From positions 1-64,000 of the forward strand of contig PYIY01000072.1 in NCBI GenBank assembly GCA_003635195.1: a DNA stretch of 64,000 nt, given 5' to 3'. A program made the position numbers and the translations under genes. The notes beneath the pieces were generated by a model. That model worked only from the letters and a program-made list of their open reading frames with translations. It did not search any database and was not told the origin of the DNA. The first letter of the stretch is position 1; each line of letters opens with the position of its first letter. The stretch comes from Candidatus Poribacteria bacterium (GTDB taxonomy: Bacteria; Poribacteria; WGA-4E; WGA-3G). This document shows, piece by piece, positions 40,344-57,791 of the stretch.

Positions 40344-40395
40344 CTGTAGGAGGGATTTGTAATCCTAACCTGTAGGAGGGATTTGTAATCCCGAT
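40344..40395. repeat. Two tandem GTAGGAGGGATTTGTAATCC repeats
   Basis: Copies CTGTAGGAGGGATTTGTAAT (40344-40363) and CTGTAGGAGGGATTTGTAAT (40370-40389) each include a GGGATT-TGT-AATCCC-type hairpin. They separate the methyltransferase and SMP-30 genes and match the copy at 15408. Confidence 0.75.
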
Positions 40396-41369
40396 TAAAA
40401 AAGTGGTACCCCTTGTGCTTCAACATAAACAGAATAAAGAGACTGGCTACCCATCATAAACAGTCGGTTCCGTTTCACGCCGCCGAAGCAGAGGTTTGCG
40501 CAGATTTCAGGCAGATGGATTTTCCCGATAAGCGTTCCATCTGGTGCGAAAACATGTACGCCGTCGTATCCGTCACCAACCCATCCAGCACTTGCCCACA
40601 GGTTACCATCAACATCGCACCGGATACCGTCAGCGATACCGGGTGCCATATCGCAGAACGCCTTTTGCTCACCTACTCGTTCACCCTCTATAACATCATA
40701 AACGTAGATATATCGCGGCGTTCCCTCTGTATGTGTAACCCCCGTATCAACGACATAGAGTTTATCATAATCCGGAGAAAAGCAGATACCGTTAGGTTTT
40801 TCGAGCGCATCCGTTACAACGATTGCTTCGCCTGTATCTGGGTTGAGGCGATACACACAAGTCGGTAGTTCAAATTCGGCGATATGCCCTTCGTAGTTGA
40901 GCATGATGCCGTATCCCGGATCCGTAAACCAGATGCCCCCATCTGGGTGGACGGCTACATCATTCGGGGCATTGAGTGGCTTTCCATTGAAGCTGTCCAT
41001 TAGTACGGTAATCGTTCCGTCGTATTCTGTGCGTGTAACGCGTCGTGCGCCGTGTTCACAACTAATCAATCTCCCTTGCCGATCGCGGGTGTGCCCGTTG
41101 CTATAGTTTGATGGCTTGCGATAGACGCTTACCTGACCGGTGGATTCCTCCCATTTCAGAATCCGGTTGTTCGGAATATCGCTCCAGAGCAGATACCCAC
41201 CGTCGCCGAACCACACAGGTCCCTCTGCCCAACGCGACCCCGTCCACAAACGTTCAACAACGGAGTTACCAATCTTATATTTTCCAAAACGGGGGTCTAT
41301 GACCTCAATCGCCGGATCCGGATAGCGGACAACCGACCCATCCCAATTTCTTTCTGGTGGTGTATGCAT
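40395..41369 (-). CDS. SMP-30/gluconolactonase family protein
   Basis: The 324-aa six-bladed propeller enzyme hydrolyses sugar or other lactones in related proteins. Signatures include RLWTGSRWAEGPVWFGDGGY (metal-binding Glu), NGHTRDRQGRLISCEHG, NAPNDVAVHPDGGIWFTDPG and LYVVDTGVT, ending with DGIRCDVDGNLWAS. The start at ATG 41369 is set by GGAGG 8 bases upstream; the TTG at 41384 overlaps that site. No signal peptide is seen. Confidence 0.9.
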   Translation of the reverse strand: MHTPPERNWDGSVVRYPDPAIEVIDPRFGKYKIGNSVVERLWTGSRWAEGPVWFGDGGYLLWSDIPNNRILKWEESTGQVSVYRKPSNYSNGHTRDRQGRLISCEHGARRVTRTEYDGTITVLMDSFNGKPLNAPNDVAVHPDGGIWFTDPGYGIMLNYEGHIAEFELPTCVYRLNPDTGEAIVVTDALEKPNGICFSPDYDKLYVVDTGVTHTEGTPRYIYVYDVIEGERVGEQKAFCDMAPGIADGIRCDVDGNLWASAGWVGDGYDGVHVFAPDGTLIGKIHLPEICANLCFGGVKRNRLFMMGSQSLYSVYVEAQGVPLF

Positions 41370-41422
41370 GCAAATTTCCTCCAAGTTGTGCTAAGCAGCA
41401 GAACGCTTTCAGTTTCTGTAAC

Positions 41423-41989: not shown

Positions 41990-42551
41990 ACGCAAAGCAC
42001 TGCCAGATGCCGGAATAATCAGACATGAATACATAAACGGCGAATTAATTGCGATGTCCGGTGCAAGTCGCGAGCATAATCTGATTACAGGTAATATCTT
42101 TGGTGAACTCCGCACTTTATTAAGAGGCAGCGAATGTGAAACCTACGCGAACGAGATGCGCGTAAGTACCCCTACGACGACCTCCTACTTCTACCCAGAT
42201 GTCGTTGTCGTTTGTGAAGAACCGCGCTTTGAAGACGATGTCTTTGACACACTTCTCAACCCCATTGTTTTGGTAGAGGTGCTCTCCCCTTCAACGCACG
42301 TTTATGATCGACGCGAAAAATTCGCACACTACCGACACCTCGCGTCGTTGCAGGAATACGTCCTCGTTGCCCAAGACAAAGTACTGGTCGAACACCACCG
42401 TCGCCAAGAAACACAAGAGCCTGCACCGGCTACAGGAAATGACTGGATTTTCACCGACTTCCAAAAACTTGAAGAAAGCCTGCCACTCACCTCCATCCAC
42501 TGCGAACTGCCTTTAGAAGAAATATACGAACGTGTCCTATTTTCTGATTAA
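41934..42551 (+). CDS. Uma2 family (DUF820) restriction-endonuclease-like protein
   Basis: The 205-aa protein shows the Uma2 pattern: RLTPEEYIAFERKA, ISGAS-like MSGASREHNLITGNIFGELR, FYPDVVVVCEE (catalytic Asp), PIVLVEVLSPSTHVYDRREK (catalytic Glu and downstream Lys) and YRHLASLQEYVLVAQ. This is a PD-(D/E)XK nuclease fold of unknown target. The start at 41934 has GGAGA 7 bases upstream and overlaps the AbrB gene. A second Uma2 gene lies at 57863. Confidence 0.88.
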   Translation: MATPAGQTRLTPEEYIAFERKALPDAGIIRHEYINGELIAMSGASREHNLITGNIFGELRTLLRGSECETYANEMRVSTPTTTSYFYPDVVVVCEEPRFEDDVFDTLLNPIVLVEVLSPSTHVYDRREKFAHYRHLASLQEYVLVAQDKVLVEHHRRQETQEPAPATGNDWIFTDFQKLEESLPLTSIHCELPLEEIYERVLFSD

Positions 42552-42564
42552 GGTTAAGACATCT

Positions 42565-45500
42565 ATGTCAAATAAAAACACATCTCTAAAATCCGGTATC
42601 AGAGACAACCTTCTTCGTGAAACAGTTCACGACTTTCTACAACAGGAAATTAAGAACGGTTCCGCCCTCTCCATCGTATCCGCCTACTTTACCATCTATG
42701 CTTACGAAAAAATGCAACATTCCCTCAACAAAATAGAGGAACTCCGATTTCTTTTCGGTGATCCCGATTTTGTCAAACGCATGGATCCGAACAATACAGA
42801 TAAAAAAGCGTTTGACATAACGGATACAGGCTTAGCACTCAACCAGCAACTCCGACAGAAACCGATTGCCAAAGCGTGTGCCGAATGGATAAAAGAGAAG
42901 GTCGAAATCCGCACGACCCGCGACGCAAATCTGATACACGGGAAGATGTACCATATCGCCAATAACGGTGTTGATAAAGCAATTCTCGGCAGCTCCAACT
43001 TTACGGTGCGCGGACTCGGACTCAGTTCAAATAACAGCAACATTGAACTCAACTTAGAGGTGGATAGTGATCGAGACCGGATTGATCTGAAGGCGTGGTT
43101 TGATGAACTCTGGAATAACGATGCACTCGTTGAAGATGTCAAAGAGAAAGTGCTGGCAAAACTAAAGCAGATAGGGCAAGATCACCCACCAGAACTCATC
43201 TATTACAAAACACTATACGAACTGTTCCGTGAAGAAATTGAGACCCGAAAAACAGACGAACAGACCCTTGAGGATATACATCTATACGACACAAAAATTT
43301 GGGACAAGTTATACGACTTCCAAAAAGAGGGCGCGAAAAGTGTTATTGCTCGGTTGTTGCGACACAACGGTTGTATTTTGGCGGATAGCGTCGGTTTAGG
43401 AAAAACATACACTGCACTCGCCGTGATAAAGTTCTTTGAATTGCGAAACGAACGCGTCCTTGTTCTCTGTCCGAAAAAACTTCGAGAAAATTGGGCACGC
43501 TATCCGGCACATAATGCACAAGCATCTAATGAGTTCCTTGACGATAAGTTCGGATACACCTTACTATCACACACCGACCTATCCAGATATAGCGGTGATT
43601 CTGGGGGTGTCAATCTATCAGATTTCAATTGGCAGAATTTTGACTTGATCGTGATTGACGAATCCCACAACTTCCGAAACGACAGCAAGCCCCGCGAGGA
43701 CAAGGACGGCAATTTCCGACACACCCGTTATTCCCGTCTATTAGAGGAAGTTATCAAGGAAGGCACGAAAACCAAAGTCCTAATGCTTTCCGCAACACCG
43801 GTAAATACATCACTTACCGACCTTCGCAATCAGATATATCTCATGACAGAAAAACGCGAGGATGTCTTTAGAAACAGTTTGGGGGTTAGCAATATCCGTA
43901 CTTTAATACGACGGGCACAAAAAGCCTTCAAGGCGTGGGAAGAAAATGCGACTAAAGGCGGCACAAGAGATAAAACAGAATTATTTGATACTTTAGGCAC
44001 AGAATTTTTCCAACTGCTCGGCGGCGTTTCTATCGCGCGTTCCCGAAGGCATATCATAAAATACTATGCCGAAGAGATAGAAAAAATTGGTGAATTCCCC
44101 ACACAACTGGATCCAATCAATTGCCATCCACCTACCGACCTGTCAGGTGAACTTTCATATAAAGCGTTGGCGGATCAGATAGGTGATTTTGAACTGTCCA
44201 TCTATAGACCCTCCAGTTATGTTATTGATGAAGCAGCAAAACAGCGGTTGGCAGATGAGAAAAAGCGACTCCGTTTCAATCAGGAAGACCGTGAGAAATT
44301 CCTCATCGGCATGATGCAGACCAACTTCCTCAAACGGTTGGAAAGTTCCGCTGACTCCCTCTCCAAAACGCTCAAACGCACTATCAACAAACACGATGAA
44401 ATGCTCGACAAGATTGAACGCTTTCAGAAAAACAGCAATATAGCAGATGCAGCAGCAAATGTCCTTCCCGATGATGATGAAGACGATGAGGAATTTTTAA
44501 TCAATCGTGCCAGAAACCCTTATCATCTCAAAGAATTGGATTGCACCCGATGGAAACTGGACATCATCCAAGATAAACAGACCCTAACCGCTGCGTTGGA
44601 AAAAGTAAAATCCATCACGCCAGAAAGAGATGGAAAATTGAAAGCGATTAAAAAGCATATTCGAGACAAGGTACTAAACCCTACGGAAGATAAGGACGGA
44701 AACCCGAATCGGAAGTTGCTCATCTTCACCACCTTCAAGGATACGGCAGAATATCTCTATGATAACTTGGCTGAACTCACTTCGGAACTAAATCTAAACA
44801 TGGCACTGGTTTCTGGAGATATGACGCGAACGACCTCCGGAGAAAATAAATTCAACGCTATTCTCACAAACTTCGCACCACGCGCCAGAGGACGTTCTGA
44901 TGACACAAGCGACACTATAGACCTGATTATTGCGACAGACTGTATCTCAGAAGGGCAAAACCTTCAGGATTGCGATACTGTCCTCAACTACGATATACAC
45001 TGGAATCCCGTCCGTATCATGCAACGGTTTGGACGGATTGACAGGATCGGGAGCAATAACGTCGCCGTCAAGATGATTAACTATTGGCCCACCGAAGATA
45101 TGGAGGTCTATCTCCGTTTGCGCAATCGCGTTGAATCCCGCATGGCACTCGCCGATGCCACCGCAAGTGGTGATGACGACCCATTGAATGAATCGGCTTA
45201 TGAACAGGCACAGATGGAACTCAATTTCCGGGATCAGCAGTTAGAACGGCTCCGTGAAGAGGTGCTTGATTTAGATGATCTCTCTGACGGTGTAGTAATG
45301 AGCGATTTTACGTTAGATTATTTCTTCGCACAACTCCTGAAGTATCTCGAAAGAAATAGAGCGAAACTTGAGGCAACACCTGATGGTGCTTATGCTGTTA
45401 CCAACAACGAAAATAACCCCACGGAAAACGGTGTCATCTTCTTTCTTCAACAAACAAACGCAAGTGCAGATAAACAGCAGAAAACCGTCAGTCCCATCCA

Positions 45501-45843
45501 TCCGTACTATGCCGTTTATATCCGAAACAGTGGCGATATCCGTTACGGGTGTATCAATGCCAAACAGGTGTTGGATCTCTTTGAAGCATCTACTGTTGGC
45601 AAGGAGAACGCAATAGATGATCTGTGTCTCTGGTTTGACCAAGAAACCGAATACGGTGATAACATGGCACATTACAACAAACTTTTGGACACCGTCATTT
45701 CACATATCACACGGTCGCATACGAAAACGCAGAGCCAAATTTTGAAGAGCGGTAGTCCCCGCGATGCAAAACTCACACCAACATCCAAAGCACCTAAAGA
45801 CACTGGCAATTTCAAATTGGTGACATGGTTGGTGATTGCATGA
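42565..45843 (+). CDS. PLD-like nuclease fused to a SNF2-type helicase
   Basis: The 1092-aa protein has an N-terminal phospholipase-D-like domain with one HKD-type motif (HGKMYHIANNG, about 125-135, and GSSNFTVRG, about 142-150). A superfamily 2 helicase core follows: Walker A ADSVGLGKTYTA (about 273-284), DESHNF (about 365-370), LSATPVNTSL, then the C-terminal half with ATDCISEGQNLQDCD and QRFGRIDRIGS. Such PLD-helicases resemble RapA/DrmD-type enzymes of restriction-like defence systems. An HTH gene and a PglX-like methyltransferase follow. The start at 42565 (MSNKN) has AAGG upstream. No complete DISARM or BREX set is present. Confidence 0.87.
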   Translation: MSNKNTSLKSGIRDNLLRETVHDFLQQEIKNGSALSIVSAYFTIYAYEKMQHSLNKIEELRFLFGDPDFVKRMDPNNTDKKAFDITDTGLALNQQLRQKPIAKACAEWIKEKVEIRTTRDANLIHGKMYHIANNGVDKAILGSSNFTVRGLGLSSNNSNIELNLEVDSDRDRIDLKAWFDELWNNDALVEDVKEKVLAKLKQIGQDHPPELIYYKTLYELFREEIETRKTDEQTLEDIHLYDTKIWDKLYDFQKEGAKSVIARLLRHNGCILADSVGLGKTYTALAVIKFFELRNERVLVLCPKKLRENWARYPAHNAQASNEFLDDKFGYTLLSHTDLSRYSGDSGGVNLSDFNWQNFDLIVIDESHNFRNDSKPREDKDGNFRHTRYSRLLEEVIKEGTKTKVLMLSATPVNTSLTDLRNQIYLMTEKREDVFRNSLGVSNIRTLIRRAQKAFKAWEENATKGGTRDKTELFDTLGTEFFQLLGGVSIARSRRHIIKYYAEEIEKIGEFPTQLDPINCHPPTDLSGELSYKALADQIGDFELSIYRPSSYVIDEAAKQRLADEKKRLRFNQEDREKFLIGMMQTNFLKRLESSADSLSKTLKRTINKHDEMLDKIERFQKNSNIADAAANVLPDDDEDDEEFLINRARNPYHLKELDCTRWKLDIIQDKQTLTAALEKVKSITPERDGKLKAIKKHIRDKVLNPTEDKDGNPNRKLLIFTTFKDTAEYLYDNLAELTSELNLNMALVSGDMTRTTSGENKFNAILTNFAPRARGRSDDTSDTIDLIIATDCISEGQNLQDCDTVLNYDIHWNPVRIMQRFGRIDRIGSNNVAVKMINYWPTEDMEVYLRLRNRVESRMALADATASGDDDPLNESAYEQAQMELNFRDQQLERLREEVLDLDDLSDGVVMSDFTLDYFFAQLLKYLERNRAKLEATPDGAYAVTNNENNPTENGVIFFLQQTNASADKQQKTVSPIHPYYAVYIRNSGDIRYGCINAKQVLDLFEASTVGKENAIDDLCLWFDQETEYGDNMAHYNKLLDTVISHITRSHTKTQSQILKSGSPRDAKLTPTSKAPKDTGNFKLVTWLVIA

Positions 45844-45854
45844 TTTTCTGAATC

Positions 45855-45884
45855 TTGACTTTTTATAATGGGGCATGGTATCAT
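45855..45884 (+). promoter_or_regulatory. Promoter of the HTH regulator
   Basis: TTGACT (45855-45860), 18 bp, TATCAT (45879-45884), 24 bp before the ATG. An AT-rich TTTTTATAATGG lies between the boxes. Confidence 0.6.
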
Positions 45885-45908
45885 ATTTCAAAGGAGAGAC
45901 ATATAACA

Positions 45909-46325
45909 ATGAAAATTTACCGAACATGGCATGCTTTCCTCATTGAACAACTCGCGGAAGAAGAAAGTGTGAGCGGTTATCTCGATGCAGTCATAGAAGA
46001 ATATCAGGTCCACAAGAATCTCGCCATAATTCAGTTGGCACTTCAGTATGTCGTTGAAGCAAAGGGCGGAATTTCTGCACTCGCCAAGAAAATAGATATT
46101 GAACCACACCTCCTATCGGAAGTGTCAGATAGCACGAAAACACCAAAAATTGATCCACTTAGCACCGTTCTTAACGCGCTTGGGTGTCAACTATCAATTG
46201 CACCACTGTCATCTACAAATCTACAGCTTGAAGATACGACTGAGGATTCTTCAGTTGCCTCACCAGAGTTAGTAACCTCTAATCCCAAACTTGATGAACA
46301 CCACGTTTCAACAGAGGAAGGGTAA
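45909..46325 (+). CDS. HTH regulator / addiction-module antidote-like protein
   Basis: The 138-aa protein resembles the HI1420-type antidote proteins: YLDAVIEEYQVHKNLAIIQL, VVEAKGGISALAKKIDIEPH (helix-turn-helix) and DPLSTVLNALGCQLSIAPL. The C-terminal 45 residues are acidic and probably disordered. AAAGGAGAG lies 11 bases before the ATG. It has its own promoter and sits between the PLD-helicase and the methyltransferase genes, so it may regulate this locus. No matching HigB-like toxin is adjacent. Confidence 0.75.
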   Translation: MKIYRTWHAFLIEQLAEEESVSGYLDAVIEEYQVHKNLAIIQLALQYVVEAKGGISALAKKIDIEPHLLSEVSDSTKTPKIDPLSTVLNALGCQLSIAPLSSTNLQLEDTTEDSSVASPELVTSNPKLDEHHVSTEEG

Positions 46326-46387
46326 TTATGAGTCATCTATTTTCATAGTCGGGTTATGTAGGTTTCAGAAAAGAAATCAGATAGAAC

Positions 46388-49300
46388 ATGAACAAAGAAG
46401 CAATCAAATCCGTACTATCAGCAATCCCCACCGGTGATTTCTTAGAAAAATCGAGAGATCTCTTGGCAACGATAGGCTACCGCAGCGAACGCACGCTTGA
46501 ACTCTCCGGCACCGTCCACGACTTTCTTGAAGAATTCCCACCACTGAACCCGAACACCAGAACCGAACAAGAATTCCGCAAAAACACCGAATCTGTGCAA
46601 CTCGTGTTCCAGTTCACAAGCGATGAAATCGCTGACGATATTCAGCAAAGACTCTTCGAGTCAGACGGTTTCGACAAAGGCAACATAAAAAGTTTCCTGT
46701 TCTGTGCAGTTGAACTAAAAGATAACAACTATTCCCGAACCAAATACGCCGAGTTCACACGAGAAATCAATAAAAGACTGTTCGCACCCACTGTGATCTT
46801 ATTTCGCGCAGGGAATCGTTTGACGGTTGCATTTGCCGATCGCCGTCCAGATAAAACGAACGAGGACCGCGATGTACTCGGACAAGTCACCCTCATCAAA
46901 GACATCCGTTTGGAAAATCCACACCGCGCACATCTTGACATCCTGTCTGAACTCTCACTTGCGGAATGCGTCAAATGGATAGATGAGAAACAAAAACCGA
47001 AAAACTTTGACGGTCTACTATCAGCGTGGCTTGCCAAACTGGATATCGAGGAACTCAACAAACAGTTCTATCGAAAACTGTTCGCCTGGTATGAATGGGC
47101 AGTTAAAGAGGCAACGTTCCCAACAGACGAAAACCGCACCCTAAAACCAGCGGAGCATGTGATACGCCTCATCACGCGTCTACTCTTTATCTGGTTTATC
47201 AAGGAAAAGGGACTGATCGCCGAGGAATTATTCAACAAATCACAAATCCAAGACCTACTGAAAGAGGACAACTTTGATAACGGCGATGCCTACTATCGCG
47301 CTGTCCTCCAAAACCTCTTTTTCGCCACACTGAACACCGAAATAGACAAGCGAAAGTTCAGCACCGTCGGCTACACCACAAATCGTGATTTCTCACGCTA
47401 TCGCTATAAGAATCAGATGCACGACCCCGATAAACTACTGGAATTGTTCGGCAAAACCCCGTTCATCAACGGCGGGTTGTTCGATTGTCTGGATAGCTGG
47501 GAAGCAACAGGACAAGAGAGTTACCGCATAGACTGTTTCTCTGATAATCAGTCCCATAAGTTATCCATCCCCAACCGCCTCTTTTTTGACGAAAACCGAG
47601 GACTTCTTCCGCTACTTGAACACTACAAATTCACCGTTGAGGAAAACACACCGATAGAGCAGGAAGTCGCACTTGACCCCGAACTACTTGGTAGGGTGTT
47701 TGAGAATCTACTCGCCGCCTACAACCCTGAAACTGGGGCAACAGTACGGAAACAGACCGGATCCTACTACACCCCACGCGCGATTGTTGACTATATGGTA
47801 GAAGAAGCGTTAGTCGCCACGTTATCCCAAAAATGCAACCCAACCGATGGTGACACAAAACTGTGGGATGAACGGCTCCACTATCTCCTCGACTATGCAC
47901 AAGCCTTTGACGATGCCAATGAATGGTTTGATGATACCGAGACAGATGGCATCGTCCGAGCCATTTCTGAACTGAAGGTCCTGGATCCGGCAGTCGGTTC
48001 CGGGGCGTTCCCGATGGGGATGCTCCACAAACTGACACTTGCACTCCGCAGACTTGACCCAGATAACAGTCGATGGGAACAATTACAGAAGGAACGCGCC
48101 GTCCAACGCGCAGAAGTCGCTTTTGATACACAAGATGACGAAGCACGCCGTGAAGAACTCGTTGAAATTGACGAAACTTTCAAACGCTACCGAGATTCAG
48201 ACTTCGGACGCAAGTTATATCTCATCCAAAACAGTATCTTCGGTGTAGACATCCAACCCGTGGCATGCCAAATCGCCAAACTCCGCTTCTTCATATCTCT
48301 CGCAATTGAGCAGGCACCGGAGCAGAACGCAGAGAACTTCGGTATCAAACCGCTGCCGAATTTAGAGACACGTTTTATTGCGGCAAACACACTGATCGGT
48401 CTCAAGGCGCAAGGAACATTGACGAGCAACACAGCACAAGATTTGGAACGAGCACTGCGCGACAACCGCGAGCAGCATTTCCACGCCACCACTCGCCAAC
48501 GCAAACGCGCATGCAAAATTAAGGACGAAGAATTGCGAATAGAATTGGCAACCGAACTAAAACGTTTCGGCATGCCAGCAGACGATGCTGAAAGGATTGC
48601 CCGTTGGGATCCCTACGACCAAAACGCCACCGCCGATTGGTTCGACTCGGAATGGATGTTCGGAATCACAGAAGGGTTTGATGTAGTCATTGGCAATCCG
48701 CCTTACATTAGTCACGATAAAATCCCAAAACAACTTAAAGTCCAAATCAAGAATCATTACCAGTCATACCAGCCATTTGCAGACGTATATTGTTATTTCA
48801 TTGAAAAGGCATTAGAACTACAGAGTAAGAGCGGTATTCTTGGTCTCATTACTTCAAATTCGTACTTAAGAGCGGAATATGGAGCACCAATCCGAAACCT
48901 ACTGCTAAGTAAAAATACACTGCTTAGAGTATTGAATATTGAGGACTCACAGGTTTTCGAGAGTGCAATTGTTAATGTTGCGATAATTGTTTCTCGTAAA
49001 CAGACAAATTCCACTGATGACCTTTGCATTGTTGTTAATTCTCCATTTTCAGGTAATAGTTTCGCTGACTTTGCGAAAATCAATGGCTTTAATTATCCTC
49101 AAGCGTACTTTAATTCAAAGTCGTGGAATCTTGCAGAACCAAAACTTGTTGAACTGCAAAAGAAACTGGAATTATCAGGAAAAACCCTTGAAGAGTTTCG
49201 GACGAAAATTAGACTTGGGATTGCTACTGGCAGCAACGAAGCCTTTCTCATCAATGAAAATCAAAAACGGGAATTTTGTGAGAAAAATCCCATCAATGCT

Positions 49301-49939
49301 GAAATCATAAAACCCGTCTTGAGAGGTCGGGACATTTCACGCTACAGTTACACTTTACCTGGGCAGTATATCCTACTCTCCAAAAATGGAGTTAATGTAG
49401 AAAGAGATTATCCTGATATATACGAACATTTAGAGTCGTTTGGAGATAGATTCAAAAATCGTGGAGCGCGGGGACAACATTGGACTAATCTACGAGCTTG
49501 TTCATTCTATGATGACTTCAAAAAGGAAAAGATCGTGTGGATTGAATTATCGGATTTGGGGAGGTTTGCCCTATGTGATGAAGAAATCTATTTACTCAAC
49601 TCAGCGTACTTTTTGTTACCACCTTCCGGTATAGATTCAAAATTTCTTCTTGGCATCCTAAATTCAAGCACAATTCGTTTTTACTTGAGTCTTGTTGCAG
49701 AAACAAGTGGAATGGGAACAAGCCGTTGGATTAACAATTATGTGAAAGAATTTCCAATACCAGTGATTGCTCATGAGCAACAAACTGAAATCATTGAAAT
49801 CGTCAATCAAATCCTTGATGCTAAACGCACCGACCCGAACGCTGACACTTCTGGCCTTGAAGATGAAATTGATAAACTGGTGTATGAATTGTATAATTTA
49901 ACGGAAGATGAGATTGCGATTGTGGAGGGGAATGCCTGA
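46388..49939 (+). CDS. Large adenine-specific DNA methyltransferase (PglX/Eco57I type)
   Basis: The 1183-aa protein has an N-terminal nuclease-like or scaffold region (about 1-380). A gamma-class N6-adenine methyltransferase core follows, with motif I VLDPAVGSGAFPMGML (about 530-545) and motif IV IGNPPYISHD (about 766-775). The C-terminal part (from about 830) looks like a target-recognition domain (GRDISRYSY, NPIPV-like FPIPVIAHEQQTEIIEIVNQ). This is the layout of PglX, DrmMI and Eco57I-type enzymes. Its stop codon TGA (49937-49939) is also the first part of a CCGCG repeat. It probably acts with the PLD-helicase. The ribosome binding site is weak. Confidence 0.9.
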   Translation: MNKEAIKSVLSAIPTGDFLEKSRDLLATIGYRSERTLELSGTVHDFLEEFPPLNPNTRTEQEFRKNTESVQLVFQFTSDEIADDIQQRLFESDGFDKGNIKSFLFCAVELKDNNYSRTKYAEFTREINKRLFAPTVILFRAGNRLTVAFADRRPDKTNEDRDVLGQVTLIKDIRLENPHRAHLDILSELSLAECVKWIDEKQKPKNFDGLLSAWLAKLDIEELNKQFYRKLFAWYEWAVKEATFPTDENRTLKPAEHVIRLITRLLFIWFIKEKGLIAEELFNKSQIQDLLKEDNFDNGDAYYRAVLQNLFFATLNTEIDKRKFSTVGYTTNRDFSRYRYKNQMHDPDKLLELFGKTPFINGGLFDCLDSWEATGQESYRIDCFSDNQSHKLSIPNRLFFDENRGLLPLLEHYKFTVEENTPIEQEVALDPELLGRVFENLLAAYNPETGATVRKQTGSYYTPRAIVDYMVEEALVATLSQKCNPTDGDTKLWDERLHYLLDYAQAFDDANEWFDDTETDGIVRAISELKVLDPAVGSGAFPMGMLHKLTLALRRLDPDNSRWEQLQKERAVQRAEVAFDTQDDEARREELVEIDETFKRYRDSDFGRKLYLIQNSIFGVDIQPVACQIAKLRFFISLAIEQAPEQNAENFGIKPLPNLETRFIAANTLIGLKAQGTLTSNTAQDLERALRDNREQHFHATTRQRKRACKIKDEELRIELATELKRFGMPADDAERIARWDPYDQNATADWFDSEWMFGITEGFDVVIGNPPYISHDKIPKQLKVQIKNHYQSYQPFADVYCYFIEKALELQSKSGILGLITSNSYLRAEYGAPIRNLLLSKNTLLRVLNIEDSQVFESAIVNVAIIVSRKQTNSTDDLCIVVNSPFSGNSFADFAKINGFNYPQAYFNSKSWNLAEPKLVELQKKLELSGKTLEEFRTKIRLGIATGSNEAFLINENQKREFCEKNPINAEIIKPVLRGRDISRYSYTLPGQYILLSKNGVNVERDYPDIYEHLESFGDRFKNRGARGQHWTNLRACSFYDDFKKEKIVWIELSDLGRFALCDEEIYLLNSAYFLLPPSGIDSKFLLGILNSSTIRFYLSLVAETSGMGTSRWINNYVKEFPIPVIAHEQQTEIIEIVNQILDAKRTDPNADTSGLEDEIDKLVYELYNLTEDEIAIVEGNA

Positions 49940-50135
49940 ATCGCGGATTACGCGGATGACACGGATTAACGCGGATTTTAAGAGCATCGCATCAGCACAG
50001 CCTATGAGCGTGTCAACATCCTATATTAGCAAACATGAGAATACAATTTGATGATACCAAAGTCAATAATCCGCGAAATCTGCGTAATCCGTGATAATCC
50101 GCGATTCAGACAACAAAGATAATCCGCGATTCCAA
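49936..50135. repeat. CCGCG-family inverted repeat pair after the methyltransferase gene
   Basis: The left arm (49936-49978) reads CTGAATCGCGGATTACGCGG onward. The right arm (50068-50109) is its inverted counterpart ending AATCCGCGATTCAG. A short extra copy follows (50116-50135). The arms are about 43 bp and flank about 90 bp of unrelated sequence. Within an arm, ATCCGCG-like units recur every 9-10 bases. The 221-bp gap holds no gene. Confidence 0.8.
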
Positions 50136-50160: not shown

Positions 50161-50568
50161 ATGAACACTAATTTGAAATACAAAGACATAACAGAAAAAA
50201 TCATCGGAGCAGCATTTGAGGTGCATAAGTTTTTAGGTAACGGCTTCCAAGAATTGATTTACCAGCGAGCGTTAGCAATTGAGATGCAAAAAGCGGGGTT
50301 GGAATTTGCTAGGGAAATTAAGCAGGACATTTACTATAAAGATTTTTTGAAGCCCATCGGTACGCGTAGAGCAGATTTTGTAGTAGCAGGAAAAGTATTA
50401 GTTGAATTGAAGGCTATTACTGAATTAGAAGCTGTACATGAGGCACAATTATTAAATTACTTGAAGGCGTATCGTTTGGAAGTCGGTTTATTAATCAACT
50501 TCGGTGAGAAAAGTTTAAACTACAAAAGACTAATTCTCTCACAACGCAATCCGGGTACACACAGTTGA
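50161..50568 (+). CDS. GxxExxY family protein
   Basis: The 135-aa protein carries the naming motif as Gly-Phe-Gln-Glu-Leu-Ile-Tyr in LGNGFQELIYQRAL, then RRADFVVAGKVLVELKAI (PD-(D/E)XK-like Asp and Glu-x-Lys) and EAQLLNYLKAYRLEVGLLINFG. The family is a putative nuclease of unknown role, often found among mobile or defence genes. AAGGA lies 7 bases before the ATG. It is bounded by CCGCG repeats on both sides and has no obvious partner gene. Confidence 0.88.
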   Translation: MNTNLKYKDITEKIIGAAFEVHKFLGNGFQELIYQRALAIEMQKAGLEFAREIKQDIYYKDFLKPIGTRRADFVVAGKVLVELKAITELEAVHEAQLLNYLKAYRLEVGLLINFGEKSLNYKRLILSQRNPGTHS

Positions 50569-50895: not shown

Positions 50896-50928
50896 TTTTT
50901 CAACTATTTGTAGGCAAAGGTGAATACC

Positions 50929-51195
50929 ATGAACGACTATAGAGACATTATTACCATTGAACCGGGTAAACGCAGCGGGCAGCCATGTATTCGGGGAATG
51001 CGGATCACCGTTTACGATGTCTTTGAATACTTGGCATCGGGTATGACCGTAGCGGAAGTGCTTCACGATTTCCCCGAGTTAACCGAGACAGATATTCGCG
51101 CCTGCTTTGCTTACGCTGCGGACAAAGAAAAATCGCAGATGGTCGTTTACACAAGTACCAAAATCAATAATCCGCGAAATCTGTGTCATCCATGA
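50929..51195 (+). CDS. DUF433 domain protein with repeat-encoded C-terminus
   Basis: The 88-aa protein has the DUF433 pattern: ITIEPGKRSGQPCIRGMRIT, VYDVFEYLASGMTVAEVLHD and FPELTETDIRACFAYAAD, a winged-helix-like small domain found in VapB-like antitoxins. The ATG at 50929 has AAAGGTG 6 bases upstream and is preferred to the GTG at 50920. The last ten residues (INNPRNLCHP) and the stop codon are encoded by a CCGCG repeat that begins at 51167, so the natural end has probably been replaced. No PIN-like toxin partner (DUF5615) follows. Confidence 0.82.
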   Translation: MNDYRDIITIEPGKRSGQPCIRGMRITVYDVFEYLASGMTVAEVLHDFPELTETDIRACFAYAADKEKSQMVVYTSTKINNPRNLCHP

Positions 51196-51213
51196 TAATC
51201 CGCGATTCTGACA
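51167..51213. repeat. CCGCG-family repeat, single direct copy
   Basis: It reads AATAATCCGCGAAATCTGTG, then TCATCCATGATAATCCGCG and ATTCTGAC. It overlaps the 3' end of the DUF433 gene and is followed 17 bp later by the promoter of the first FRG gene. Confidence 0.82.
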
Positions 51214-51230: not shown

Positions 51231-51259
51231 TTGACAAGCGAGCGCGAACATAGTATGAT
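51231..51259 (+). promoter_or_regulatory. Sigma70-type promoter of FRG+TPR pair 1
   Basis: TTGACA (51231-51236), 17 bp, TATGAT (51254-51259), 38 bp before the TTG start. Confidence 0.77.
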
Positions 51260-51297: not shown

Positions 51298-52014
51298 TTG
51301 AACACACCAGGAACCGAACTGAACAGGATTTTAGAGATAATCGGCAGGATAGCAGAAACAACTGCCGATGGTGACTTCATCTATCGTGGTGAACCTGAAC
51401 ACTATGAGAAAGTATCTTCAAGTTTGTGGCGTGAATGCAAGAATGTACTGGAAACGGAGGAATTTGATATAGAAGCGATCCAAAAGCGCATGCTCGAAGC
51501 CTCTAAAGACTATACCCATGAAGAAGACGATTTTGAAATCCTCACAGAACTCCAACACTACGGTGGCCATACCAATCTTATAGATTTCACAACTGATAAC
51601 CACATAGCCCTTTTCTTCGCATGTGATGGGTCTCCTGACAAACCCGGTAGAATTATTTTGTTTCAAAGAACTGAAGAGATAAATGAAGAATATAAAATCA
51701 GGAAACCGCAGAATCCGAGAAATCGTGTCATCGCACAGAAAAGTATTTTCGTTCAACCCCCCAAAGGTTTTCTTGATTTAAAGAAATATGAAGTTATTGA
51801 TACTCCGCAATCGCTTAAAGAGCCGATGTTAGACCATCTGCAAAAACAACACGGTATTTCAACCCAAGCCGTTTACAACGATCTCCATGGATTTATTAGA
51901 AACCAGAGCATCCACCAGAAAACATATATAGAAGGTTTCAGAGTCGGAACGCAGCCGAAAGAGGATGTCTTCCAAATCGCTCCATCTCAACCGAGCGACA
52001 AAAAGGAGATGTAA
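51298..52014 (+). CDS. FRG domain protein, pair 1
   Basis: The 238-aa protein is mainly one FRG domain. The three motifs are FIYRG (Arg30), LQHYGGHTNLIDFT (85-98) and VIAQKSIF (144-151). They align by eye with the fused protein at 11607-12923 and the protein at 54062, while the sequence between them diverges. The start is a TTG with TGGAGA 7 bases upstream; the N-terminal MNTP is shared with the third FRG protein. The TPR gene follows after 3 bp, so the two are translated together. The biochemical activity is unknown. Confidence 0.85.
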   Translation: MNTPGTELNRILEIIGRIAETTADGDFIYRGEPEHYEKVSSSLWRECKNVLETEEFDIEAIQKRMLEASKDYTHEEDDFEILTELQHYGGHTNLIDFTTDNHIALFFACDGSPDKPGRIILFQRTEEINEEYKIRKPQNPRNRVIAQKSIFVQPPKGFLDLKKYEVIDTPQSLKEPMLDHLQKQHGISTQAVYNDLHGFIRNQSIHQKTYIEGFRVGTQPKEDVFQIAPSQPSDKKEM

Positions 52015-52017
52015 AAC

Positions 52018-52821
52018 ATGCAGGCACAAACAAATCGGGCATCTTATGAAACCGATATCCAACATTATAACAAAGCAATTAAAGAGTTACCCACCTTTGC
52101 CCAGGCATATAATTATCGTGGAGTCGCTTACGGCAATATAGGTGAAATTGACCGTGCCATTGCGGACTTTAATAAGGCAATACGACTTAAGGAAAACTAT
52201 GCCGAAGCATACAGCAATCGCGGTGGTGCCTACCGTATTAAAGGAGACTATGACCGCGCTATCAAAGATTGTAACACAGCAATAAGATTTGACCCGAATT
52301 TACCAGAAGCATATAACAACCGTGGGATAAGTTATAAACTCAAAGATGAAACAGATCGCGCTATTCAAGACTATAACATGGCTATAGAACTTGATCCAAG
52401 CTTTGCTTATGCCTATTACAATCGTGGTATTATTTACCACGAAAAAGACGATTTCGATCTTGCTATCAAAGACTATACGAAGTCAATAGAGCTGAGACCC
52501 GACCTTGTCCATCCGTATAACAACCGCGGGAACGCTTACGCCCAAAAAGGCAAGTATGAACTTGCTATCAAAGACTATGACAAGGCAATACAACTTAACC
52601 CTGATTTGATAGAGGCGTATTACAATCGCGGTATGGCATTTTTACACTTGCAAGAATGGGAAAAAGCCAAAGAAGATCTTACAACTGCCAGAGACAAACA
52701 GGAAAATATTATCATTGAACAGTTTCGCAAAGAATACAAAAACGTTGCCGATTTTGAGCAGAAACATGGCGTTAAACTACCAGAAGACATCGCTGCACTG
52801 TTAACTCCCTCGCAGACATAG
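52018..52821 (+). CDS. TPR repeat protein, pair 1
   Basis: The 267-aa protein consists of about seven tetratricopeptide repeats (AYNNRGISYKLKDETDRAIQ, DYNMAIELDPSF and similar). It ends with a distinct C-terminal tail, FEQKHGVKLPEDIAALLTPS. The tail recurs in the TPR protein of pair 2 (LEQHPDVNPPEDIATLLTLP). The start has AAGGAG 10 bases upstream inside the end of the FRG gene. TPRs mediate protein-protein contact, so it probably binds or senses something for the FRG protein. Confidence 0.87.
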   Translation: MQAQTNRASYETDIQHYNKAIKELPTFAQAYNYRGVAYGNIGEIDRAIADFNKAIRLKENYAEAYSNRGGAYRIKGDYDRAIKDCNTAIRFDPNLPEAYNNRGISYKLKDETDRAIQDYNMAIELDPSFAYAYYNRGIIYHEKDDFDLAIKDYTKSIELRPDLVHPYNNRGNAYAQKGKYELAIKDYDKAIQLNPDLIEAYYNRGMAFLHLQEWEKAKEDLTTARDKQENIIIEQFRKEYKNVADFEQKHGVKLPEDIAALLTPSQT

Positions 52822-52842
52822 CAGCAAAACTGCCCTCTAAGC

Positions 52843-52891
52843 AGATAACTTGATGTTACAGAGTATCAATCCGTGTAATCCGCGATTCTGA
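52843..52891. repeat. Shared 3' flank plus partial CCGCG repeat after pair 1
   Basis: AGATAACTTGATGTTACAGA (52843-52862) and ATCAATCCGTGTAATCCGCG with ATTCTG follow the TPR gene. The same GATAACTTGATGTTACAGA-TCAATCCGCG flank recurs at 53819 and in diverged form at 56138, so it marks the right boundary of three modules. Confidence 0.78.
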
Positions 52892-53152
52892 AAAAATTTG
52901 ACTTTCTACATTATATATGCTATCATACATAGACAAGTTATCATATATTAATGTAACAGCATTTGAAAAACCAAAGCAACCTTGCCTATAAAATGAGTTG
53001 TCCACAAACCAAATTAACAAACGTTAACCAATAAAATTCGCATTTTATGAACAACTTAAAAACAAACCGAATCCATCAAGTGCCATCAAGCCAATCGAAC
53101 ACTATGCTCGTGGCACTTTGAAAAGAGATAGACAAAAATTAAAATTGCCCAA

Positions 53153-53459
53153 TTGTTCACGAAAATTCCAGAGACATAGAATTCAAAAACGTCATGGTCC
53201 AACGGCCTGACTGCGTTTGCCCTGTTTAAAAAGGGAAAAAAGAATCGTGAACAATTTCGTGAACATTTGTGAACATCCTGGGCAACAGATCATCGTGCAT
53301 AGAACCTATTGCGCTCACAAACCCACGCCTTGAATGGGTTCACAACCCTGTATACTATGAACACGAAAATTGAACAAATCGCGAATGTTCATGAAAATCC
53401 GTGCCATGTTCACGAAATGTTCATAATTTACGTCCGAGAAACCCATTGTCCACGAAACA
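53153..53459. promoter_or_regulatory. Cluster of TGTTCACGAAAT-like direct and inverted motifs
   Basis: Within the 673-bp gap before the 86-aa gene, copies occur at 53153-53166 (TTGTTCACGAAAAT), 53245-53277 (three TTCGTGAACA-type copies inverted), 53386-53398, 53407-53426 (TGTTCACGAAATGTTCATAA) and 53447-53459. Spacing is irregular. It could be an array of protein-binding sites. The rest of the gap is AT-rich and holds no convincing ORF. Confidence 0.5.
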
Positions 53460-53494
53460 AAAAAAATTAACAAATAGTTAATTTATTCGGTAAG

Positions 53495-53755
53495 ATGAAC
53501 AAACTCAGAGTTTTCGCAGACTTCCACAACGCAGACGTGAAAGGCAGGGTCCGGTTGAGCTGCGCTGGTACGATAGCAGATCTCGAACGTCAAGGAATTG
53601 TGCTGCGAGATGGGCAATCCCTTATCATCTATAGCGAAGAGCTGGAGGTTGAGGGCATCGTTCACTACTCAGAAGAAGAAAAATTGTGGACAGCAATAAT
53701 TGATTGGAATGCCATTCGAGAAATAGACTCCGTTGTATCTCAAATAACGCCATAA
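53495..53755 (+). CDS. Uncharacterised 86-aa protein
   Basis: The small protein reads LRVFADFHNADVKGRVRLSC near the start, then DGQSLIIYSEELEVEGIV and LWTAIIDWNAIREI. The strand-rich pattern suggests a small beta barrel. I do not recognise a named family, though similar short proteins seem to occur in other bacteria. The ATG at 53495 has no clear ribosome binding site. The GTTCACGAA cluster lies directly upstream and a CCGCG-bounded flank downstream, so it appears to be its own module. Confidence 0.65.
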   Translation: MNKLRVFADFHNADVKGRVRLSCAGTIADLERQGIVLRDGQSLIIYSEELEVEGIVHYSEEEKLWTAIIDWNAIREIDSVVSQITP

Positions 53756-53818
53756 GTCCGGGATGTAACAAGTTAAGCCGCTGTGCCACAAACAGCGTCA
53801 TTCAGTTCTCCTATTATC

Positions 53819-53973
53819 GGATAACTTGATGTTACAGAATGTCAATCCGCGTCCTCCGCGCCCTCCGTGATAATCCGCGATTCTGACAAGAAACGCAATG
53901 AATTGCGCAACTATGAAAAGAGACACTCTTAAAATCCGCGTAATCTATTTAGTCCGCGATAATTTACGATTCA
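53819..53973. repeat. Shared flank and two CCGCG-family repeats before FRG pair 2
   Basis: GGATAACTTGATGTTACAGA (53819-53838) leads into the first repeat (53844-53887: TCAATCCGCGTCCTCCGCGC, then CTCCGTGATAATCCGCGATT). A second copy lies at 53932-53973 (AAAATCCGCGTAATCTATTT onward). They fill most of the 306-bp gap and stop 14 bp before the next promoter. Confidence 0.78.
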
Positions 53974-53986
53974 TATAAAACGGCAA

Positions 53987-54015
53987 TTGACAAACACATT
54001 CCTAAATTGTATAAT
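53987..54015 (+). promoter_or_regulatory. Perfect-consensus sigma70 promoter of FRG+TPR pair 2
   Basis: TTGACA (53987-53992), 17 bp, TATAAT (54010-54015) is an exact consensus match, 46 bp before the FRG start codon. Confidence 0.82.
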
Positions 54016-54061
54016 CTGATTAAGGATTGTGGTCGAATGACATAGCATCAAAGAATACCGC

Positions 54062-54835
54062 ATGAACACACCGGTAGAAATATCCAGTTTAGTAGACTAC
54101 ATCAACCAAATAGACGCGATAACCGATCCCGAAAAAAGTTATCTCTATCGTGGTCAGGAAAACGAGACATGGCGTATAACCAGTAGTGCCTATCGTCGCT
54201 TGGTAAGCAGCTCCGAGGATTTGAGACGAGAAGATGATCTTCTGTCTTATCCGTTGCGTGATTTGTACCAGAATTATCTCCTTGAAATTATTGATGAGAT
54301 TAAACTGAGGTATCCATCTACATATAGAGACCTGTGCGCTTTAGAGTGCATGGCACATTTACAGCATAACAGAGTTGCTACAGGCTTAATTGACTTTACC
54401 GTTAGTCCGTTAGTCGCTCTTTGGTTTGCTTGCGCCGATGAGAACATAAATGGCAAGGTTATTGTGTTGGAAAACGATAGTGAGAAAATTGAAGAGATAA
54501 CAACTATTGAACAGCTTCAACAGGATTTGGCAGTATTTTTTCCGATTGATCAAGAAAATTGGTATCTATGGTCTCCGACGCTGGACAGTCAGATAGTGGA
54601 AACCCAGCGGTTGATTATGCAGCAATCGGTGTTCTTATTTGGCTTACCGGAAATAGATACAGAAATGATCACGCAAGAAATCACAATCCGTAGCGATGAC
54701 AAAGCAGGTATCAGAATGGCGTTAGAAAAAATGGGAATCTCGGAAGAGACCTTGTTTTCCGACTTACTCGGTTTTTTTGAAAGAAATAGTGCTACGCAGC
54801 CTTATAACCTATCAGTTGACACACTTGATTCCTGA
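54062..54835 (+). CDS. FRG domain protein, pair 2
   Basis: The 257-aa FRG protein begins MNTPVEISS. It carries YLYRG (Arg30), SSAYRRL, LQHNRVATGLIDFT (100-113) followed by ALWFACA, and LIMQQSVFLFG (184-194). The motifs are closer to the fused protein at 11607-12923 (SAYRR, ALWFACG, QQSIFFFG) than to pair 1. No strong ribosome binding site precedes the ATG. The TPR gene follows after 11 bp. The function is unknown; a conserved Arg, His, Asp and Gln set suggests an enzyme active site, but this is inference. Confidence 0.85.
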   Translation: MNTPVEISSLVDYINQIDAITDPEKSYLYRGQENETWRITSSAYRRLVSSSEDLRREDDLLSYPLRDLYQNYLLEIIDEIKLRYPSTYRDLCALECMAHLQHNRVATGLIDFTVSPLVALWFACADENINGKVIVLENDSEKIEEITTIEQLQQDLAVFFPIDQENWYLWSPTLDSQIVETQRLIMQQSVFLFGLPEIDTEMITQEITIRSDDKAGIRMALEKMGISEETLFSDLLGFFERNSATQPYNLSVDTLDS

Positions 54836-54846
54836 AGGACACTACT

Positions 54847-56109
54847 ATGAACAACGAATTAACCGACAGGGACAACCCTTTTTCCAAACATTCGCGACGA
54901 GGTGCCCAGAGGTTGTTCGCGAGAAAATACGACGAAGCCATTGAAGAATACAACAAAGCAATAGAACTAAAACCCGATTACGCGCCTATCTATAGTATAC
55001 GCGGCTATGTATATCGCATCAAAGGTGATTTTGAATCTGCTATCAAAGACTATAATAAACTGATAGAACTCAGACCCGATAATGCTGATGGTTATTGTGA
55101 TCGCGGGATCGCCTACAGCAGAAAAGGTGAATTTACGCGTGCCATCCAAGATTTCAACAAAGCGATACAACTTAAACCAAACCTCGCTGATACATACAAT
55201 GGTCGTGGCTTAACGTACCACCAGATGAATGAAGTGGATCTGGCCCTTCAAGACTTCAACAAGGCAATAGAACTCAGACCTGATTTTGCCAAGGCATATA
55301 ACAATCGTGCCCTTGTTTATCAAGATAAAGGCGATGCTGATAAGACAATCGAAGACACCAGCAAAGCGATAGAATTTCAGCCTAATTTATCATACGCCTA
55401 TAATAATCGCGGTAATGCTTATGTCAGGAAAGGCATAACGAGCCTCGCTATCAAAGACTTTAGCAAAGCGATACATCTAAACCCTGAGCTTGCTGAAGCC
55501 TACTGCAATCGCGGTGTTGCTTACGAAAATAGGGGTGAATTTGAGTGTGCTATTGAAGACTATACAAAGGCGATAGAACTTCAACCTGATTATGCAGTAG
55601 CGTATAACAATCGCGGCGTAGTTTACAACAAAATGGATAGAATTGAGCTTGCTATCGAAAACTTTAGCAAGGCGATAGAGATTAATCCGAAGTCTGCAAA
55701 TGCTTATAGCGGTCGTGGGCACGCGTATACGGTTAAAGGTGAATTTGATCGCGCTATTGTAGACCATAACATGGCGATAAAACTCAACCCGAACCTTGCT
55801 GAAGCCTATTACAATCGCGGGAATGCTTATTTCACCAAGGGTGAACTGGACCGTGCTATTGAAGACTTAGACAAAGCCATTGAACTTAAATCGGATTATG
55901 CCGAAGCCTATTACAATCGCGGCGTGGTATGGTCAAGGCTGCAGCAGTGGGAAAATGCAAGATTGGATCTGACTGTTGCGAATATCATAGGAAAAAACAG
56001 CATCAACGCATTCCATCCTATCAACAGAAACATCGTAAATCTTGAACAGCACCCCGATGTCAATCCGCCAGAAGACATTGCCACGCTGCTAACCCTCCCG
56101 CAGGCATAG
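54847..56109 (+). CDS. TPR repeat protein, pair 2
   Basis: The 420-aa protein has about eleven tetratricopeptide repeats (AYNNRGVVYNKMDRIELAIE, NFSKAIEINPKSA and similar). It ends with the tail LEQHPDVNPPEDIATLLTLP shared with pair 1. An N-terminal stretch of about 20 polar residues precedes the first repeat. AAGGACACTACT lies before the ATG. Compared with the pair 1 protein it has about four more repeats, as expected if TPR units were gained or lost by recombination. Confidence 0.87.
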   Translation: MNNELTDRDNPFSKHSRRGAQRLFARKYDEAIEEYNKAIELKPDYAPIYSIRGYVYRIKGDFESAIKDYNKLIELRPDNADGYCDRGIAYSRKGEFTRAIQDFNKAIQLKPNLADTYNGRGLTYHQMNEVDLALQDFNKAIELRPDFAKAYNNRALVYQDKGDADKTIEDTSKAIEFQPNLSYAYNNRGNAYVRKGITSLAIKDFSKAIHLNPELAEAYCNRGVAYENRGEFECAIEDYTKAIELQPDYAVAYNNRGVVYNKMDRIELAIENFSKAIEINPKSANAYSGRGHAYTVKGEFDRAIVDHNMAIKLNPNLAEAYYNRGNAYFTKGELDRAIEDLDKAIELKSDYAEAYYNRGVVWSRLQQWENARLDLTVANIIGKNSINAFHPINRNIVNLEQHPDVNPPEDIATLLTLPQA

Positions 56110-56137
56110 CAGTCCAACAAAAGACTGTCCTCTTAGC

Positions 56138-56207
56138 AAATCACCTGATGTTCCAGAATCTTCAATCCGCGAGATCCGGGTCATCCGCGATAATCTGTGA
56201 TACTGCC
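56138..56207. repeat. Shared flank and CCGCG repeat after pair 2
   Basis: AAATCACCTGATGTTCCAGA (56138-56157) is a diverged copy of the flank at 52843 and 53819. TTCAATCCGCGAGATCCGGG and TCATCCGCGATAATCTGTG follow. It is the last copy of the family and marks the right end of the island. Confidence 0.72.
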
Positions 56208-56618: not shown

Positions 56619-57791
56619 ATGCCACTGGATAGGAAAATACGTTATGGCATGGTCGGTGGTGGACCGGATGCCTTCATCGGTGCCGTCCATCGTAAAGCCG
56701 CTGCACTTGACGGAGAAATCGATCTCGTCGCTGGCGCGTTCTCGTCATCACCTGAAAAATCTCGCCAGCAAGGGGCCGAACTCTTTCTTGACGCAAACCG
56801 GATTTATGGCTCTTATCACGAAATGGCAGAAAAAGAGAGTCAACTGCCCGAAGGCGAACGCATTGATTTCGTCTCAATTGTGACACCGAATCACGTCCAT
56901 TTTGATGTCGCCAAAACTTTTATTGAAGCCGGGTTCCACGTCGTCTGCGATAAACCGATGACAACAACGGTTGCCGATGCCGAGACACTCTGTAATCTCG
57001 TCAAACAGCACGATGTTGTCTTCGCGCTCACACACAACTACACCGGTTACCCAATGGTGAAACAGGCACGCGAACTCGTGAAAGAAGGGAAACTCGGAAC
57101 GCTCCGAAAAATCGTCGTAGAATACCCGCAAGGCTGGCTCGCCACATTTCTGGAAAACGAAGGCGCGAAACAAGCCGTCTGGCGCACGGATCCGAAACAA
57201 GCGGGTGCCTCTTCGTGTATTGGGGACATCGGTTCTCACGCCGAAAACTTAGCACACTATATCACAGGACTGGAAATCGAAGAAATCTGTGCAGACATGA
57301 CCACCTTTGTAGAGGGACGGCTCTTAGAAGACGACGGGAATTTATTGGTGCATTATGAAAATGGTGTCCGCGGTATCTTGTACGCCTCGCAAATCTCAGT
57401 AGGTGAAGAAAACAACTTACGCATCCGCGTCTACGGCACTGAGGCTTCACTGGAATGGCATCAGGAGAACCCGAATTACCTCCACGTCCGTTTCCCGGAC
57501 GGTCCCGAGCAAGTTTACAAACGCGGCAACGACTATTTGGCAGAGGTCGTCCAGCACAACTCGCGGATACCTTTCGGACATCCCGAAGCATTTATTGAGG
57601 CATTCGCAAATATCTATGTGAACGCCGCACGCACGATGGCTGCAAAAATCGCAGGCGAAATCCCTGCGGAGTTTGACACGGACTTCCCGACCGTCCAAGA
57701 TGGAGCACGCGGCGTACACTTTATCAATGCCGCTGTAGGGAGTGGCAAACAGCGCGCCTGGATCGATGCAAGGTATACGCCACCGGCATAA
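56619..57791 (+). CDS. Gfo/Idh/MocA family oxidoreductase
   Basis: The 390-aa NAD(P)-dependent sugar or polyol dehydrogenase has the Rossmann start YGMVGGGPDAFIGAVHRKAA. VSIVTPNHVHFDVAKTFIEAG with HVVCDKPMTTT follows (catalytic Lys near 111). In the second domain, GASSCIGDIGSHAENLAHYI carries the conserved Asp and His. AAAGGAG lies upstream of the ATG. The sugar isomerase 1 kb downstream is a frequent partner in inositol or rare-sugar catabolism. The exact substrate is unknown. Confidence 0.9.
   Translation: MPLDRKIRYGMVGGGPDAFIGAVHRKAAALDGEIDLVAGAFSSSPEKSRQQGAELFLDANRIYGSYHEMAEKESQLPEGERIDFVSIVTPNHVHFDVAKTFIEAGFHVVCDKPMTTTVADAETLCNLVKQHDVVFALTHNYTGYPMVKQARELVKEGKLGTLRKIVVEYPQGWLATFLENEGAKQAVWRTDPKQAGASSCIGDIGSHAENLAHYITGLEIEEICADMTTFVEGRLLEDDGNLLVHYENGVRGILYASQISVGEENNLRIRVYGTEASLEWHQENPNYLHVRFPDGPEQVYKRGNDYLAEVVQHNSRIPFGHPEAFIEAFANIYVNAARTMAAKIAGEIPAEFDTDFPTVQDGARGVHFINAAVGSGKQRAWIDARYTPPA

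Follow-up and report, generated by a model that had tools for sequence, protein, structure and literature searches.

FRG domains (PF08867) have been assigned to the ADP-ribosyltransferase (ART) superfamily and proposed as potential antiviral effectors or NADases, according to the part of PMC9503650 that deals with them (citing an Aravind-group study, J. Bacteriol. 2020 e00365-20). The family is also carried in PADLOC as the phage-defence candidate PDC-S15, which leaves out of date the earlier note on the DNA studied here, where FRG was called a domain of unknown function. Among other proteins of possible relevance, TIR domains are known NADases, and the TPR-S family of tetratricopeptide repeats (TPRs) reportedly serves as the sensor of systems predicted, in a 2020 study, to run on NAD-derived signals. 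Here, we analyse 64,000 nucleotides of a Candidatus Poribacteria genome (the window; part of a 112-kb contig, C72, in a genome of 6.45 Mb and 214 contigs), in which three FRG domains are each joined to a TPR array, twice as adjacent genes and once as a single fused protein. We propose that FRG and its TPR array, whether paired or fused, make up a single two-part conflict module, most likely anti-phage, in which FRG is an ART-fold effector acting on NAD+ and the TPR array controls it, and we give this a probability of roughly 0.6; that FRG performs NAD+ chemistry, that the TPR array controls it and that phage is the trigger are all things we infer.

The first pair consists of FRG1 (51298-52014, plus strand; 238 aa, with a TTG start) and TPR1 (52018-52821, plus strand; 267 aa, about 6-7 TPRs, 201 bits to TPR_1), which follows 3 bp 3' of it. 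The second consists of FRG2 (54062-54835, plus strand; 257 aa) and, 11 bp further 3', TPR2 (54847-56109, plus strand; 420 aa, about 10-11 TPRs, 329 bits to TPR_1). The fusion (11607-12923, minus strand; 438 aa, 126 bits to TPR_1) may really start slightly further upstream, its stop-to-stop frame being 470 aa. Genes were called as open reading frames (ORFs), and TPRs were counted with a small profile made from window sequences, on which the numbers depend. All three FRG domains belong to PF08867, with 55.9 bits for FRG1, 61.5 for FRG2 and 53.8 for the fusion against a Pfam cut-off of 25 bits and with R30 and G31 invariant, and they match the PDC-S15 profile at E values of 4e-21 (FRG1) to 1e-27 (FRG2). 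The ORFs and Pfam scores thus bear out the two pairs, their gaps and the fusion as the earlier note had them, and alignment does the same for the strict order of motifs in the three FRG proteins, namely [FY]RG, LQH....T.LIDFT....AL[WF]FAC and Q[QK]S[IV]F. The TTG start of FRG1 is homologous in position to the ATG of FRG2 (AGAACAGCGTTTGAACACACC vs AGAATACCGCATGAACACACC). We rejected the idea that the two pairs arose by tandem duplication of one module, since the identity between FRG1 and FRG2 is only 25% and the two fall in separate deep clades of the FRG tree. The closest named relatives are Candidatus Poribacteria, with FRG2 95% identical in JAJDTM010000062.1. Between orthologues, TPR2 has changed more quickly than FRG2 (about 83% vs 95% identity), which we do not take as proof of a sensor, given that TPR1 is not faster than FRG1; a common C-terminal tail of the TPR proteins was likewise dropped as not specific.

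The strongest argument that FRG and TPR form one unit is that they fuse and split without changing order, as a comparison across genomes shows. In the genome of the window, eight of the nine FRG genes are TPR-linked (six fused, two followed by a TPR gene), the ninth (L042) having only sub-threshold TPR matches. The phylum as a whole shows the linkage at 74 of 83 FRG loci (35 fused, 39 adjacent); 40 loci came from a second round in which many were chosen for short ORFs that would expose a missing partner. At random control loci of related genomes, 3/186 genes were TPR genes and 2/186 had a TPR gene after them, a background of about 3%, so the linkage is far beyond chance. These sequences are mostly metagenome assemblies, and several loci share contigs, which were de-duplicated for the tree and not for every count. 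In all 108 fused ORFs the TPRs are C-terminal to the FRG domain, and in adjacent pairs the FRG gene is upstream and the TPR gene downstream, often with a 4-bp overlap. The number of TPRs varies from about 2 to 25 per protein. On a tree of 156 FRG sequences the fused or adjacent state changed at least 12 times, and the linked or unlinked state 11 times, against 28 with shuffled labels. Partners that fuse and split time and again in an unchanged order usually form a unit, physical or functional, and this we infer for FRG and TPR. The linkage is a trait of particular branches and not of FRG generally, because in a Pseudomonadota sample with FRG in 30 of 299 genomes, none of the 29 FRG loci examined was TPR-linked; it does occur in Chloroflexota, Latescibacterota, Tectimicrobiota, Binatota, Gemmatimonadota, some Pseudomonadota and one methanogen. 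Elsewhere in this material, a pentapeptide-repeat protein is fused to FRG (L033:946-2433), a second repeat scaffold joined to the domain.

The strongest argument that FRG is the effector is that TIR, known as an NAD-processing effector domain, replaces it on TPR arrays of the same chromosomal location. At the chromosomal hotspot that holds the two gene pairs (described below), five TPR-array proteins of relatives carry an N-terminal TIR instead of FRG (in L180, L184, L193 and, with two genes, L190). Two TIR-TPR proteins were checked against PADLOC, one from the hotspot (L184) and one from the genome of the window (L196), and both match ThsB of Thoeris. In addition, there are 14 loci (8 distinct at 97% identity) with a gene for a 405-aa TIR protein, and in most of them an FRG-TPR fusion begins about 120 bp downstream of it. 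This conserved protein has an N-terminal TIR and a 270-aa C-terminal part of no assigned family, and is found at L013:91-1305 and in L014, L018, L025, L035, L096, L105, L110, L183 and others. The window itself has no TIR ORF by our own TIR profile, and among ten window proteins scanned against PADLOC there was no Thoeris, the search for ThsA not covering every window ORF. The TPR array is a general chassis, since other arrays in this genome are fused to TIR or to trypsin-like proteases. The protease fusions are found in L201 (C64:1-11000), L205, L207 and L214, with four genes in tandem on C64; one of these four and L214 were checked with Pfam and the others were assigned by reading. A further array in the same genome is fused to a TaqI_C-like specificity domain (L197:1224-3788).

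As for what FRG might do, AlphaFold models of FRG2 (pLDDT 88, pTM 0.87) and, from a separate alignment, of the FRG domain of the fusion (pLDDT 89, pTM 0.84) have the same order of elements, and the fold predicted from them is most like that of ADP-ribosyltransferases. Foldseek searches of the Protein Data Bank (PDB) with both models returned leading matches that are mostly ARTs (TreTu, TreX, toxin A1 subunits, Arr, PARP2, PltA and MbcT), with E values of 0.02-0.09 and probabilities of 0.72-0.91 for TreTu and TreX. A search of a viral structure library gave weak matches, one of them DarT-like, and no sequence match of FRG to a solved structure was found up to E=10. The conserved Arg, His, Asp and Gln that the earlier note took for an active site are present across the sampled FRG proteins, where R30, G31, R45, Q101, H102, T107, D111, R183 and Q187 are all kept, stand-alone FRGs included. 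Placed on the ART scheme by way of the models, [FY]RG would be the strand with the NAD-binding Arg, LIDFT...AL[WF]FA would replace the S-T-S strand and helix, and Q-x-S would replace [EQ]xE. Neither classical ART triad (R-S-E or H-Y-E, with [EQ]xE) was found in FRG, which keeps the first-strand Arg and the Gln and has the final Glu replaced. Hence the mechanism of FRG, if it is an enzyme, is by its residues not the textbook ART one. An analogy to Ser catalysis in RES toxins was considered and dropped, since the Ser position is Gly in stand-alone FRGs.

FRG-like proteins also occur on 248 plasmid records, mostly conjugative, and stand-alone FRG genes sit at accessory positions of temperate phages: near the genome end in P2_2H1, a P2 relative, near a side tail fibre gene and IS2 in PhiR11_1, and after the lysin, as ORF54, in TP901-1. 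We take the end of P2 to be the tin/old accessory-gene locus. The two phage copies that were checked are PDC-S15.

The two gene pairs lie in a variable locus bounded by genes conserved across the genus, an SMP-30-like gene, assigned by reading, on the left (40395-41384, minus strand) and a Gfo/Idh-type oxidoreductase gene on the right (56619-57791, plus strand). The interval between these edges ranges from about 0.3 kb in one genome (G021) and about 2 kb in another (G016) to about 21 kb elsewhere. In the window it holds, on the plus strand, an HKD(PLD)-Snf2 helicase (42532-45843; PADLOC C3a139, 7e-107), a small HTH/antidote-like protein (45855-46325) and a type IIG-like restriction enzyme and methyltransferase (MTase) with Eco57I and TaqI_C domains (46388-49939). 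These three recur jointly at the hotspot in many members of the genus and look like one restriction-type system (42532-49939); a PDDEXK_3 nuclease-like protein (50161-50568) and a DUF433 protein (50920-51195) are recurrent small neighbours. Filled hotspots mostly share the helicase, the HTH protein and the IIG-like enzyme, while their FRG-TPR modules differ. With its variable content between conserved flanks, its helicase, IIG MTase and TIR-TPR genes and an AbiEii-like AAA protein, the locus has the character of a defence hotspot, and the probable defence island of the earlier note is upheld in this form. One FRG2 orthologue at the hotspot (G044; L180:2639-3445) is broken by an in-frame stop, its TPR2 partner being intact.

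The island modules are separated by a repeat, TAATCCGCGATTCTG, set within an element of 40-56 nt, with copies at 50095, 50741, 51196, 52876 and 53871 and, on the minus strand, at 49936. Plus-strand elements thus stand before FRG1 (51155-51210, core at 51196), after TPR1 (52834-52904, core at 52876) and before FRG2 (53810-53899, core at 53871), with a diverged copy after TPR2 (56129-56205). Near-copies number 16 in the whole genome, and five of them, including all three exact ones, fall within 3.8 kb of the window (50.1-53.9 kb). Per 100 kb, hotspot loci hold 14.6 copies and other Poribacteria FRG loci 4-6; control stretches and further stretches of the same genome, about 495 kb together, hold a single copy. 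The repeats are possibly cassette borders. Each pair also has a sigma-70-like promoter, TTGACA-17-TATGAT for FRG1-TPR1 (51231-51259, plus strand; 11/12 consensus positions) and a perfect TTGACA-17-TATAAT for FRG2-TPR2 (53987-54015, plus strand; 12/12). These near-consensus promoters are real, as the earlier note would have it, and are kept in orthologous loci, and yet they are ordinary in this organism, because control genes are nearly as rich in them (at least 11/12 matches in 15/121 vs 12/159 upstream of control genes); we dropped them as a special feature.

In light of this, how might the module work? Of the readings considered, that of the earlier note explains the evidence best: an FRG effector with TPR as its sensor or restraint. 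FRG, as an ART-fold enzyme, would use NAD+, which it would either destroy or spend on ADP-ribosylating a target, and its activity would stop cells from growing or phage from being produced. The TPR array, encoded downstream or at the C-terminus, would keep FRG inactive, or bind a trigger and then activate it, or both, and that trigger could be a phage protein, a host protein or an NAD-derived signal. The modules would be cassettes that can be exchanged within a chromosomal defence hotspot punctuated by repeats, with TIR-TPR at the same place in relatives. A broader idea, which we hold only tentatively, is that FRG-TPR, TIR-TPR and perhaps trypsin-TPR make up one modular immune class in a sponge-symbiont defence hotspot, with a common TPR sensor chassis, interchangeable effectors and repeat-bounded cassettes, FRG being the ART-fold effector with a non-canonical active site. 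On this view, where relatives have TIR and FRG-TPR in one operon, the TIR enzyme could produce a signal from NAD, which the TPR array would read and so make FRG fire.

Several results weigh against the proposed module. Although the nearest solved structures are mostly ARTs, one of the folds with which the earlier note proposed a comparison, the best of these matches are weak (E 0.02-2, TM-scores 0.2-0.3 by query length), and neither FRG model has a PDB match at E<0.001. Where the catalytic Glu would stand, TPR-linked FRGs have Ser and stand-alone FRGs mostly Gly, and for that reason FRG may be inactive as an enzyme or have a different chemistry. Other ARTs also lack the final catalytic Glu. 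The TPR array is here a generic scaffold, TPR genes being common in sponge symbionts and arrays being found on trypsin-like proteases as well. The anti-phage function is the weakest step, because the neighbours of FRG loci generally are not clearly richer in PADLOC families (top families in at most 3/140 vs at most 2/131 in controls) and control stretches also carry restriction genes; a general enrichment of defence genes near FRG loci, which would have suited the earlier note, is thus not clear. Convincing defence context is limited to this hotspot and the TIR neighbours.

A serious rival, unlikely as we judge it, is that these proteins are symbiosis effectors, eukaryote-like TPRs with an ART-like enzyme acting on sponge cells. 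It is serious because TPRs and other eukaryote-like repeats are enriched in the metagenome-assembled genomes (MAGs) of sponge symbionts and have a proposed role in modulating the host (PMC8163846). Relatives, too, come mostly from MAGs of Poribacteria, Caldilineaceae, Entotheonella and Latescibacterota. Speaking for the conflict module over a host effector are the N-termini of FRG1, FRG2 and TPR1, which look cytoplasmic by eye, a member in a Methanomicrobiales archaeon (L081), the restriction-type genes and TIR swaps in the island, and the stand-alone FRGs of phages and plasmids. Improbable too is a toxin-antitoxin system, with FRG a constitutive toxin, TPR its antitoxin and the island maintained by addiction without phage sensing. 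Two-gene operons with gaps of 3-11 bp or 4-bp overlaps would suit it, as would the ART-like toxins among the Foldseek matches (TreTu, TreX and MbcT). Frequent fusion into one protein (the 108 fused ORFs) and the widely varying number of TPRs do not, and the stand-alone FRGs of Pseudomonadota, which have no TPR partner, argue against an obligate TPR antitoxin. A housekeeping or metabolic role, with the TPR array recruiting the substrate of an ART-like enzyme, would fit the presence of FRG in nearly every genome of the family (56/58) and is nonetheless very doubtful in view of copy numbers of 0 to 11, a site that is either empty or filled, a patchy distribution across phyla and the stop-split copy in G044.

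If the two-part conflict module is accepted, it bears on a domain that is widespread in plasmids, prophages and genomes and to which annotations still give no function. A partner that is almost always there, a fixed order, natural fusions and a position at which TIR is swapped in offer a concrete handle on how FRG may be controlled. What was the prediction of a domain thereby becomes a two-part immune module open to direct tests in Poribacteria, a group represented here almost wholly by metagenome assemblies. We met no description of an FRG-TPR system in the literature on the FRG domain, as covered by PMC9503650. The earlier note's candidate undescribed system is therefore new only in part: FRG was already a predicted antiviral effector, whereas the branch joined to TPR, together with its swapping for TIR, looks new, with the proviso that the 2020 J. 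Bacteriol. paper may already note TPR links.

Set beside known systems, the module is closest to FRG/PDC-S15 itself, with which it shares the domain family, the predicted ART fold and the predicted role of antiviral effector or NADase. It differs in that PADLOC and PMC9503650, in the part that deals with FRG, treat it as a single protein or domain, whereas here there is a TPR-linked branch with a fixed gene order and TIR exchange, and in that TPR-linked FRGs have Q-x-S where most stand-alone FRGs have Q-x-G. The TIR-TPR proteins that resemble Thoeris ThsB have, at the same hotspot, a TPR array preceded by an NAD-linked effector domain, as FRG is predicted to be; the ART-like FRG fold is unrelated to theirs, and the hotspot genes that were examined included none recognisable as ThsA. 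With TPR-S (PF20308) the likeness lies in TPR arrays paired with NAD-linked enzymes, which FRG would be, and TPR2 (29 bits) and L186 (50 bits) score above its cut-off, whereas TPR1 and the window fusion fall below it; these matches are probably generic cross-similarity between TPRs. Finally, the RES and MbcT toxins are ART-fold, NAD-consuming members of two-gene systems, as FRG is predicted to be, MbcT being a weak Foldseek match, and RES (PF08808) was found in 0/40 genomes searched in the phylum. They have no sequence link to FRG, whose partner is a TPR protein and not an MbcA-type antitoxin.

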